From a virus: DNA of 51,077 nucleotides. The notes below the pieces were generated by a model, which did not search any database, was not told the origin of the DNA, and saw only the letters and a program-made list of their open reading frames with translations. Made by a program: the position numbers and the translations under genes. Of this stretch, positions 419 to 3,674 are shown piece after piece. The first letter of the stretch is position 1, and each line of letters starts with the position of its first letter. The stretch spans positions 1-51,077 of the IMG/VR virus record IMGVR_UViG_3300028666_000043. One strand, written 5' to 3'.

Positions 419-450
419 TTTGGTAGATTCATTTATTTTTTCTACCTTTG
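419..450 (+). promoter_or_regulatory. Primary-type promoter of the large structured RNA
   Basis: TTTG at 419-422 and TAccTTTG at 443-450 are separated by 20 nt. The expected start lies near 455, in CAGTTCATTGA (454-464), the same initial sequence that follows the tRNA promoter at 129-139. Confidence 0.8.
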
Positions 451-547
451 TTTCAGTTCATTGATAAAGATATTCTGGTTCTGGTTCCCTCACAAGGGAC
501 GTAAGCTGGTGAGCAGTCGGGCTCATTGGTCCAACATGGCAGCGATG

Positions 548-616
548 CTTGTAGTAGTTTAATCAAAACACGGTGCCCAAAAGCACTGGTTGGAGGTCTC
601 GAATCCTCTCTACATA
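548..616 (+). other. tRNA-like domain inside the large RNA
   Basis: A degenerate cloverleaf: TGTAG (550-554) pairs with CTACA (610-614), followed by a GTTT/AAAC arm, an anticodon-like arm with GTGC/GCAC around CCAAAA, and a T-like arm whose loop TCTCGAAT has 8 nt. It lacks U33 and the D-loop GG, so it cannot act as an ordinary decoding tRNA. It may be a relic or a structural mimic within the larger RNA. Confidence 0.4.
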
Positions 617-860
617 ATACAAAGCTATGGAATCAGATAAGGTGCCACTGGTTAAACATACAATTTGAGCGTTGTATGGAGCGACTGGTCCTCCGTGAGC
701 GAGGGCCTTAGCGACCAGTGGAGCTCACACCTCTTGGACCAAAAGAAGGCCAAGCCAGGTAAGGCCAGAGCACTGGACCAAATAAAAGAACAAGGCCAGC
801 TTAAGCTGGATTAAAGATATGTTGCATGGCTGCAATAGGAGCTGGTAACTCCAAAGCGTT

Positions 861-894
861 GGACCCCTCGAAAGAGGTGGTCCTTTTGCTTTTT
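861..894 (+). terminator. GAAA-capped hairpin with T tract
   Basis: GGACC (861-865) and CCTC (866-869) pair with GAGG (74-77 of the 800s) and GGTCC (879-883) around a GAAA tetraloop, with one bulged T. TTTTGCTTTTT follows. It reads as an intrinsic terminator, although it could also be an internal helix of the RNA. Confidence 0.65.
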
Positions 895-912
895 ATACTG
901 GTCCTGTACACA

Positions 913-944
913 TTTGACATTTGTAAATATTATTCGTATATTTA
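913..944 (+). promoter_or_regulatory. Promoter of the HNH gene
   Basis: TTTG at 913-916 and TAtaTTTa at 937-944, spacer 20 nt. The last base of the -7 box deviates from consensus. The start codon follows 10 nt later. Confidence 0.55.
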
Positions 945-954
945 CAAATGAGTT

Positions 955-1449
955 ATGATAAAACGACAAAAATATCTTGAGGCTAATAAAGTAAGAATTG
1001 CTAAACAGAAAAGGGATTATTATGATACTAATAAAACTGATATGTTATCTAACCAAAGAGAATGGCGTGAAAATAATAAAGAAAAACAAACTCAATTCAG
1101 ACGAGATAAATTGAAGAACAATAATCTACATAAGATAAAATGTAGTATTAGAACATTGATAGGAAATTCATTTAGATACAAACGTATAAGAAAATCTTCA
1201 AACACTGAGTTAATTTTAGGTTGTTCATTTCCTCAGCTTAAACATCATATCGAATCTCAATTTGAGCCTTGGATGAATTGGAACAATAAAGGTTTATATA
1301 ATGGTGAATTTAATTATGGATGGGATATAGATCATATTATTCCATTATCAACTGCAACAACCGAAGCTGAATTAATTCAACTTAATCATTATAGCAATCT
1401 TAGACCACTTTGTAGTTATACCAATAGAGTTATTAAACGTAACGTATAG
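955..1449 (+). CDS. HNH homing endonuclease
   Basis: A 164-residue free-standing HNH nuclease that probably cuts DNA at its own insertion site. The first 60 residues are a lysine- and glutamine-rich helical DNA-binding segment. The catalytic core is visible as WDIDHIIPLS (123-132) followed by NHYSNLRPL (144-152), the H-N part of the beta-beta-alpha-metal fold. The zinc-binding cysteines of some HNH families are absent. It has its own promoter and sits between 9-bp direct repeats within a hairpin of the RNA locus, as homing genes often do. Product class is confident, target site is inferred. Confidence 0.88.
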   Translation: MIKRQKYLEANKVRIAKQKRDYYDTNKTDMLSNQREWRENNKEKQTQFRRDKLKNNNLHKIKCSIRTLIGNSFRYKRIRKSSNTELILGCSFPQLKHHIESQFEPWMNWNNKGLYNGEFNYGWDIDHIIPLSTATTEAELIQLNHYSNLRPLCSYTNRVIKRNV

Positions 1450-1518
1450 ACACATTTGTGTACATAGGTGGACCGAAGACTCATCTAAACAAAGATAATG
1501 CAACCAAGAGCCCCTAAA

Positions 1519-1920: not shown

Positions 1921-2166
1921 CTATTTAAGCCCTACCATTTTTTTCAATTCAGCTTTTATTTCACGAGCTTTATCACCTTTCCAAGTGGTTGCGTTTGACA
2001 AAAAGTACAACACAACACTTTTTGCCGTATCTTGGTAATACATATCCTCGATTGAGTTGAGGGTTTCCATTGCTTCCAAATAAGGCTTAGCCCCAAAGTA
2101 AAGCTTAACCCAATCCTTGCGGATTTCCTGAGCAATTTCAGATAAAGGACGATTTGTGTTTGTCAT
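1921..2166 (-). CDS. Conserved small phage protein, NRPLSEIA type
   Basis: Eighty-one residues, mostly helical. The opening RPLSEIAQEIRKDW, the central PYLEAMETL and the ending KAREIKAELKKM match a small protein I recall from many unrelated phages and actinobacteria, always of unknown function. It is transcribed leftward from its own promoter at 2193-2224, and a 49-nt gap separates it from the downstream cysteine-rich gene, which has a separate promoter. Family memory is moderately confident, function is unknown. Confidence 0.85.
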   Translation of the reverse strand: MTNTNRPLSEIAQEIRKDWVKLYFGAKPYLEAMETLNSIEDMYYQDTAKSVVLYFLSNATTWKGDKAREIKAELKKMVGLK

Positions 2167-2865: not shown

Positions 2866-2910
2866 AACCCATCATTAATTTGGTGGGTTGTTTTATTTTA
2901 CTTATCTTTG
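2866..2910 (+). promoter_or_regulatory. Terminator hairpin overlapping a promoter
   Basis: AACCCATC (2866-2873) pairs with GGTGGGTT (2882-2889), followed by GTTTTATTTT, which is a plausible intrinsic terminator. TTTG (2879-2882) straddles the loop and 3' arm, and TAtcTTTG is at 2903-2910 after 20 nt. Confidence 0.75.
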
Positions 2911-2914
2911 CCTT

Positions 2915-2992
2915 GTTGATTGAGAGATCAACGGGACGACTAGAGTCGGAAGGTATACTCCACGCTACACATATCTCAAAAATACTTGAAGA
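2915..2992 (+). ncRNA. Short promoter-driven RNA without ORF
   Basis: The promoter at 2879-2910 starts a transcript that has no usable start codon before the next promoter (2997). The segment forms GTTGAT/ATCAAC (2915-2920/2927-2932), CGAC/GTCG (2937-2940/2945-2948) and a GGA/TCC stem around GTATAC. It is a candidate small RNA or a long leader for the gene at 3054. Confidence 0.4.
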
Positions 2993-2996
2993 TAAA

Positions 2997-3028
2997 TTTG
3001 GTGGATTCAAATATTATATCTATATTTG
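2997..3028 (+). promoter_or_regulatory. Promoter of gene 3054
   Basis: TTTG at 2997-3000 and TAtaTTTG at 3021-3028, spacer 20 nt. Confidence 0.8.
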
Positions 3029-3053
3029 TCTCACCAATCTAAACCACATAGCC

Positions 3054-3353
3054 ATGCACATTACAATCAATACTCCAAACCAAATTTTTAAAACCATTGG
3101 TCACACTGAAAAGTTTGAGCCAGTCCTTTATTTTAAAATTGGACAACGTAAACAAGCGATTAAAGACCTCACAGACTACTTTAATGAGTTTGATAAGGTA
3201 CTAGCTACTGGTATCCAATTTACCGAAAATGACTGGGAAAAATATGCTACTCAATTTGAAGAGAAAGCTAAGGTTAAAGCACTTGAAACGATTGAGCGTG
3301 TTGTAGAATTTAACAATAAATTTTTTACTTTTTTACCTGTTATTAAAAAATAA
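3054..3353 (+). CDS. Hypothetical protein (99 aa)
   Basis: The frame is open from 2880, but I choose ATG 3054 because it follows the promoter box by 25 nt, as in neighbouring genes. The upstream codons would lie in promoter and RNA sequence. The product has a strand-rich first third (MHITINTPNQIF) and a helical second half rich in Lys and Glu. No family recognised. Confidence 0.75.
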   Translation: MHITINTPNQIFKTIGHTEKFEPVLYFKIGQRKQAIKDLTDYFNEFDKVLATGIQFTENDWEKYATQFEEKAKVKALETIERVVEFNNKFFTFLPVIKK

Positions 3354-3458
3354 TACTTATATTTGTCTCATGGATAATACACTGATAATATCACAGCACA
3401 AGTAAGAGAGAACTATGGAACTCCTGAAAAACCACACTGGAAAAATAAGGGTGGACAA

Positions 3459-3674
3459 GTGTTTAGTCTCAATGTAGATAGCGATGCTTTTATGTACGTT
3501 GAAAAAGAGTGTATTGAAGCGATTAAAACCCTATTGGCGAAACGCTCCAATGCTATGTGTATTTATGAATACGTTGACCATGAATTGATTTTTACGGGTA
3601 TTGAAACCCTTAACGATAAAGACTTTGCTGAGGAACTGCAAAAGAATTGTGAAAAGAACTATAAACCAACATAG
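3459..3674 (+). CDS. Hypothetical protein, start unresolved
   Basis: The frame is open from 3378 and reads sensibly upstream of the GTG at 3459 (VRENYGTPEKPHWKNKGGQ), so the GTG is probably not the true start. No ATG, GTG or TTG exists between the in-frame stop at 3375 and 3459. A -7 box (3358-3365) is followed 4 nt later by an ATG (3370) in another frame, which would need a -1 shift. The product has an alternating helix-strand region and no recognised family. A small deletion, an unusual start or an assembly error are all possible. Confidence 0.6.
   Translation: MFSLNVDSDAFMYVEKECIEAIKTLLAKRSNAMCIYEYVDHELIFTGIETLNDKDFAEELQKNCEKNYKPT

Follow-up and report, generated by a model that had tools for sequence, protein, structure and literature searches.

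Free-standing homing endonuclease genes of phages usually insert between genes, with segB located in a tRNA spacer (PMC2988022). The T4 enzymes of this kind cut hundreds of base pairs or more from their own gene, and the operator of I-TevI resembles its homing site (PMC2988022). Here we describe a comparable locus in IMG/VR virus record IMGVR_UViG_3300028666_000043, analysed over a stretch of 51,077 nt that we call the window, where a free-standing HNH homing-type gene has probably inserted in a pre-existing copy of a dispersed intergenic palindrome, or dyad. Like the T4-like free-standing enzymes (the HNH Mob and GIY-YIG Seg enzymes), the window gene is intergenic rather than intron-borne and has its own phage promoter with a leader hairpin (PMC2988022). 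The locus comprises the following features.

419-450, plus strand: Bacteroidetes-type predicted promoter (TTTGGTAGATT...TACCTTTG) of a structured RNA, read in the sequence
455-894, plus strand: structured non-coding RNA, itself uninterrupted, with diverged homologues in L161 and L240
861-894, plus strand: intrinsic terminator GGACCCCTCGAAAGAGGTGGTCC-TTTTGCTTTTT (-16.4 kcal/mol, z -4.4), ending the RNA at about 894
900-904, plus strand: left outer arm GGTCC, pairing with 1470-1474; window-specific, absent in relatives
905-916, plus strand: left dyad remnant TGTACACATTTG, dyad positions 1-12, from the sequence and comparison with relatives
908-916, plus strand: left 9-bp direct repeat ACACATTTG, read in the sequence
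914-944, plus strand: promoter-like site of the HNH gene, TTGACA-17-TATATT (11/12 match)
917-1449, plus strand: insert of 533 bp, missing in HNH-less relatives (alignment with L161)
918-950, plus strand: leader hairpin, a 13-bp perfect inverted repeat overlapping the HNH promoter (fold z -2.6)
937-944, plus strand: phage-type motif TATATTTA in the HNH promoter
955-1449, plus strand: HNH endonuclease-like ORF of 164 aa with conserved D126-H127, N148 and N157
1447-1465, plus strand: right, nearly whole dyad TAGACACATTTGTGTACAT, overlapping the HNH stop codon
1450-1458, plus strand: right 9-bp direct repeat ACACATTTG, beginning directly 3' of the TAG stop of ORF 955-1449
1450-1465, plus strand: intact core ACACATTTGTGTACAT of the right dyad
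1470-1474, plus strand: right outer arm GGACC, absent in relatives
1519-1553, no strand assigned: terminator-like hairpin, listed on the minus strand only and probably serving converging minus-strand genes
1921-2166, minus strand: conserved 81-aa gene, the synteny anchor of the dyad site

The original prediction, made from the letters of the window, described an HNH gene flanked by 9-bp direct repeats and nested in an interrupted GGTCC...GGACC hairpin. Both repeats are where it placed them, the right copy directly after the stop codon, and comparison with relatives identifies them as overlapping pieces of a dyad, positions 1-12 on the left and 4-18 on the right. Without the insert and one repeat, the junction reads CTGGTCCTGTACACATTTGTGTACATAGGTGGACCGAAG, and its fold (-16.6 kcal/mol) has stems of 7 and 6 bp separated by a 5-nt bulge, the rejoined flanks restoring the inner palindrome TGTACACATTTGTGTACA inside the GGTCC/GGACC outer stem. 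Of 5000 dinucleotide shuffles, 69 give a shared word of at least 9 nt between the 55 nt upstream and the 25 nt downstream, and 22 of 2000 give an equally good junction fold. Repeat and fold are thus each chance events of about 1%, neither decisive by itself, and the pattern alone is only suggestive. The HNH gene is the sole ORF of at least 60 aa within 917-1449, and the leader hairpin is the only inverted repeat seen inside the insert.

Relatives lacking the gene provide the stronger evidence. In four near-identical contigs (L156, L157, L158 and L161), which have the RNA locus and the 81-aa gene in common with the window, the HNH gene is missing there and an unbroken dyad, TATACACATTTGTGTACAT, stands exactly at the insertion point of the window. 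The order in record G015 (L150/L161) is diverged RNA, terminator, intact TATACACATTTGTGTACAT and 81-aa gene homologue; the terminator tract is followed by the dyad after 13 nt in L161 and by the left stub after 10 nt in the window. G015 has an HNH gene elsewhere, about 1 kb off on the opposite side of the RNA. An intact dyad 3' of the same 81-aa gene is also present in more distant phages: in G018 (L240), which keeps recognisable parts of the structured RNA, and in G038 (L236), G013 (L075) and G026 (L300). The site is therefore occupied in the window and in G001, and empty with an intact dyad in the G015 group, G018, G038, G013 and G026. At this site in HNH-less relatives the dyad spans 18 bp and reads TGTACAC(N)(W)TTGTGTACA or close variants. 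This comparison shows that the site existed without the HNH gene, whose arrival it probably pre-dates.

The unbroken dyad bears out the proposed insertion into a palindrome, with one repeat as the duplicated target. Unrelated sequence at this point in HNH-less relatives, or carriers devoid of the repeats, would have spoken against it; the dyad is found in the former, and the same-locus carrier G001 has a split dyad. The hairpin expected to be intact in HNH-less relatives is there in part, its inner dyad being unbroken and its outer GGTCC/GGACC arms not conserved. Modest as the repeats are alone, the intact dyad of relatives at the same spot gives the locus the look of a landing site with its homing gene still in place.

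The dyad itself is widespread. Its general form, ATGTACAC(N)(W)TTGTGTACAT, is 18-20 bp long and recurs between genes in related phages. Scanning IMG/VR for GTACACATTTGTGTAC returned 44 stretches, some within one conserved coding gene; most matches are intergenic, where a record holds several copies of the form (A)TGTACACATTTGTGTACA(T). Set against other phages, the inner palindrome is highly significant. When up to 3 mismatches are allowed, dyad matches, counted as places seen on both strands, occur in all 29 dyad-bearing records, compared with 4 matches for a reversed-pattern control; since the records were mostly picked for holding the dyad, only the contrast with the control counts. In eight records the inner core ACACNWTTGTGT has 33 matches; every one of them belongs to a whole dyad, and conservation is similar in the two arms. 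An asymmetry between the arms, strong with a biased core, mostly disappeared with the unbiased inner core (left 0.73, right 0.82). The pattern GTTGCATGNCTGCAAT proved unspecific as a search probe, and a literature search for the dyad string gave no match. The dyad 20-mer has a single match in 84,980 bacterial and archaeal genomes, indicating that the dyad is phage-specific.

Nine records (eight whole records and the window) hold 49 dyads, of which 38 (78%, versus 20% at random) are non-genic and 10 (20%, versus 1.9% at random) follow a stop codon on the same strand by at most 25 nt. The dyad lies 3' of a terminator in five different contexts, and in several phages it is often found 26-39 nt upstream of a phage promoter motif. 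These positions, after stops and terminators and upstream of the promoter motif, suggest a role in regulation or at 3' ends. In L078, L079, L087, L088, L089, L091, L094, L099, L100, L059 and L066 the dyad is retained 50-75 bp upstream of one conserved small gene (MEKNIIKEKLRESLF...), usually 26-39 bp before the phage promoter motif ATATTTAT, and these loci are a good place for asking what the dyad does. A recurring GTACCCacgttaGCACGTTnnGCnTTTTT, which looks like a second shared, terminator-type element, lies 10-40 nt after the dyad in L064, L072, L083 and L086. On the minus strand of L094, near 620, a perfect terminator hairpin has the dyad as its tip (AACCTCG-dyad-CCGAGGTTTTTT), an arrangement that parallels the outer GGTCC/GGACC arms of the window.

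Upstream of the dyad, the 661-nt RNA region folds with a z-score of -6.2, and the same promoter type precedes the RNA in L161 and L240. Rfam scans of the region found no family beyond tRNA, and BLASTN of the RNA against phage records retrieved promoter fragments only. The L161-group RNA is a diverged version of that in the window, recognisable by TTTGAGCGTT, CCAGnGGAGCTCACAC, TTGCATGnCTGCAAT and a terminator ending in CCCTTTTGCTTTTT. Counterparts of the terminator stand before the dyad in L161, where the stem sequence differs, and in L240, L236 and L075. The structured RNA sits downstream of tRNA-Leu/tRNA-Met, with homologues on the minus strand of L161 and on the minus strand of L240 at about 2870-3560; GGGACGYAAG..GGTGRG and TTTGAGC are common to the diverged homologues of at least two other phages, and L161 also has the GGAGCTCACAC and TTGCATGnCTGCAAT blocks. 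A weak tRNA-like match lies inside the RNA at window positions 548-617 (20.4 bits, below threshold). A 57-nt tRNA-like sequence at 1590-1646 on the minus strand of the window (Rfam tRNA, 48.7 bits; not called by ARAGORN) has D- and T-arms and apparently no anticodon arm.

W123, D126, H127, N148, N157 and K161 of the window protein are invariant across 26 homologues, giving it the catalytic residues of an HNH/His-Me enzyme. Its Pfam HNH match falls below the cut-off (E 0.0051), and PHROG 1035, 'endonuclease VII', matches at 1.4e-6. The predicted structure has a mean pLDDT of 83.5 and a pTM of 0.40; a Foldseek search of the PDB with this model gave no match, and a search for solved structures by sequence returned nothing. 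With a model that has no PDB match, the HNH assignment rests on sequence, by which the protein is a diverged HNH. ATATTTA(T/C) occurs shortly upstream of the start codon in many homologues. The leader hairpin is stronger than shuffles in the window and in most other dyad-associated HNH genes (z -1.6 to -3.4), with L115 as the exception (z -0.2), and z is near 0 in most of the remaining homologues, a small sample. A group I or II intron with an HNH ORF was considered and rejected, Rfam cmscan at the gathering threshold and at E values up to 10 finding no such intron core. The insertion is non-coding and lies 3' of a terminator, which places the gene outside an intron or intein.

The 81-aa-gene site is also occupied in G001 (L003/L126/L283), by an HNH gene 56% identical to that of the window; its dyad is split into GTACACTTT on the left and TACACTTTTGTGTACA on the right, a nearly whole dyad following the stop codon. 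A minus-strand HNH gene of G005 has TGTACACTTT on its left and a whole dyad on its right (TGTACACTTTTGTGTACA), and a plus-strand one in the same record has the whole dyad on its left and TGTACACAAAAGTG on its right, inside the HNH 3' end. The G016 gene has AAATGTGTAC on both sides, and a dyad follows the HNH stop in L148 and L085. Altogether, dyad-derived direct repeats, 8-14 bp long, flank five HNH insertions, and the stop codon often has a nearly whole dyad left beside it. These cases show the same HNH family occupying or abutting dyads in other phages, in either orientation.

A dyad within 50 nt accompanies 7 of 20 HNH genes (6 of 19 when the window is left out), compared with 0.7 expected at random (0/2000 shuffles) and with 35 of 1484 ORFs overall, in a test biased in that three of its eight records had been picked up earlier for HNH-dyad pairs. 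Of 26 records selected mainly because they hold the dyad, 17 have HNH homologues, and 52 of 60 homologues lie away from dyads. A separate scan for TTTT-variant dyads found no further dyad abutting a homologue of the window HNH beyond the known cases. A dyad-specific HNH clade was rejected, the tree showing no clustering (7 changes; shuffled mean 7.6). This scatter of dyad-adjacent genes indicates that the dyad is not one clade's private target and that its occupation arose several times or was often lost. A second HNH family (MKYNEKKRLQ...), in L069, L083, L084/L272, L096 and L315, has dyads in or near the C-terminal coding end, often with another dyad 300-400 bp downstream.

Could the dyad instead be the border of a transposon- or MITE-like element, with solo dyads as scars or non-autonomous copies and the 9-bp repeat as a target-site duplication? 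Solo dyads do recur 1-8 times per record, dyad pairs 200-400 bp apart are common, the nearly whole dyad tends to sit at the HNH 3' end, and repeats surround five HNH insertions. However, the insert has no transposase gene and no terminal inverted repeats around it, and the repeats are not of constant length. In many diverged phages the dyad keeps its syntenic position, next to the 81-aa gene and 5' of a second conserved gene, a placement more in keeping with a resident element than with scars. We consider such an element improbable. Distinctly improbable, and already weakened, is the proposal of an ordinary gene-end or operator function for the dyad, with HNH genes carrying one after their stop, as many genes do, and the left half copies being coincidental. 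The 38 non-genic dyads, the 10 that closely follow a same-strand stop and the many that precede the phage promoter motif by 26-39 nt agree with it, but it leaves unexplained the unbroken dyad at the insertion point in HNH-less relatives, the collinear left stub of the window, at 10 nt from the terminator against 13 nt for the L161 dyad, and the split dyads around other HNH genes; closeness to a dyad is also far commoner among HNH genes than among ORFs overall.

The original prediction also had the gene homing into a stem-loop of the structured RNA, with that RNA running through to 1519-1553; the gene might on that view be an intron-like insert in an RNA. An RNA does lie directly upstream, and the GGTCC/GGACC arms lengthen the palindrome. 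Yet the terminator at 861-894 ends the RNA before the dyad, as its counterparts stand before the dyad in relatives; the outer arms are missing there, both dyads and HNH insertions are also found where the RNA is absent, no intron family matches, and the hairpin at 1519-1553 is scored as a terminator on the opposite strand only. We regard this account as very improbable overall, and we reject an RNA stem or intron on account of the terminator and the Rfam scans. Since the dyad follows terminators here and stands between ordinary protein genes elsewhere, the target is better described as a dispersed DNA palindrome than as part of an RNA.

Insertion of a free-standing HNH gene in a resident dyad, the reading we hold to be probable, would proceed by break repair. 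The HNH enzyme or a relative would break the dyad or nearby DNA, and repair would copy the HNH gene into the broken site. With donor genes bordered by dyad sequence, repair could be guided by a copy of the same dyad on one side and leave a stub on the other, and such one-sided repair would give direct repeats of 8-14 bp. Target duplications are not a normal product of classical homing; the repeats would then stem from fill-in of a staggered break, or from dyad sequence that travels with the gene and aligns with the target dyad on one side. The insert brings its own phage-type promoter-like site and leader hairpin, and its insertion point has the RNA terminator on one side and convergent genes on the other, so that no gene is broken. 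Given that T4 free-standing enzymes cut far from their own gene (PMC2988022), the dyad may be the insertion point only. A dual use is conceivable though rather unlikely: a regulatory palindrome resident in a large phage group would serve the HNH family both as homing target and, in the half or whole copies left upstream of the HNH promoter, as its own operator. Were this true, any dispersed dyad might offer a landing place, and repair driven by the HNH enzyme from one dyad to another could carry genes and dyads through these genomes. The landing sites of intergenic homing genes are seldom visible. At this syntenic locus both occupied and empty alleles exist, and what looks like the target is a recurring 18-bp palindrome, making recognition, cutting and transfer between sites directly testable, and the locus exposes an apparently undescribed, dispersed and regulatory-looking element of large phages.

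With the T4-like enzymes, the present HNH genes share presence or absence at orthologous sites, several paralogues per genome and occasional transposition-like spread (PMC2988022). The insertion points described here differ in that they include a recurring short palindrome, partly duplicated, whereas the T4 enzymes usually cut at a distance; the parts of PMC2988022 consulted describe no dispersed insertion motif like the dyad for them. By sequence family the window HNH belongs with the endonuclease VII-like proteins (PHROG 1035) and may not be a Mob enzyme. I-TevI, I-TevII and I-TevIII repress themselves through an operator that resembles the homing site beside a late promoter, and dyad-associated HNH genes similarly have half or whole dyads, candidate operators, 3-35 nt upstream of a phage-type promoter; the window HNH, in contrast to those enzymes, is not intron-encoded. 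Short direct repeats flank the window insert as they do insertion sequences with target-site duplications, from which it differs in having neither transposase nor terminal inverted repeats, and the present HNH cases differ in combining a variable repeat length with a fixed palindromic target. What is unusual is a dispersed palindromic landing site together with occupied and empty alleles at one locus.
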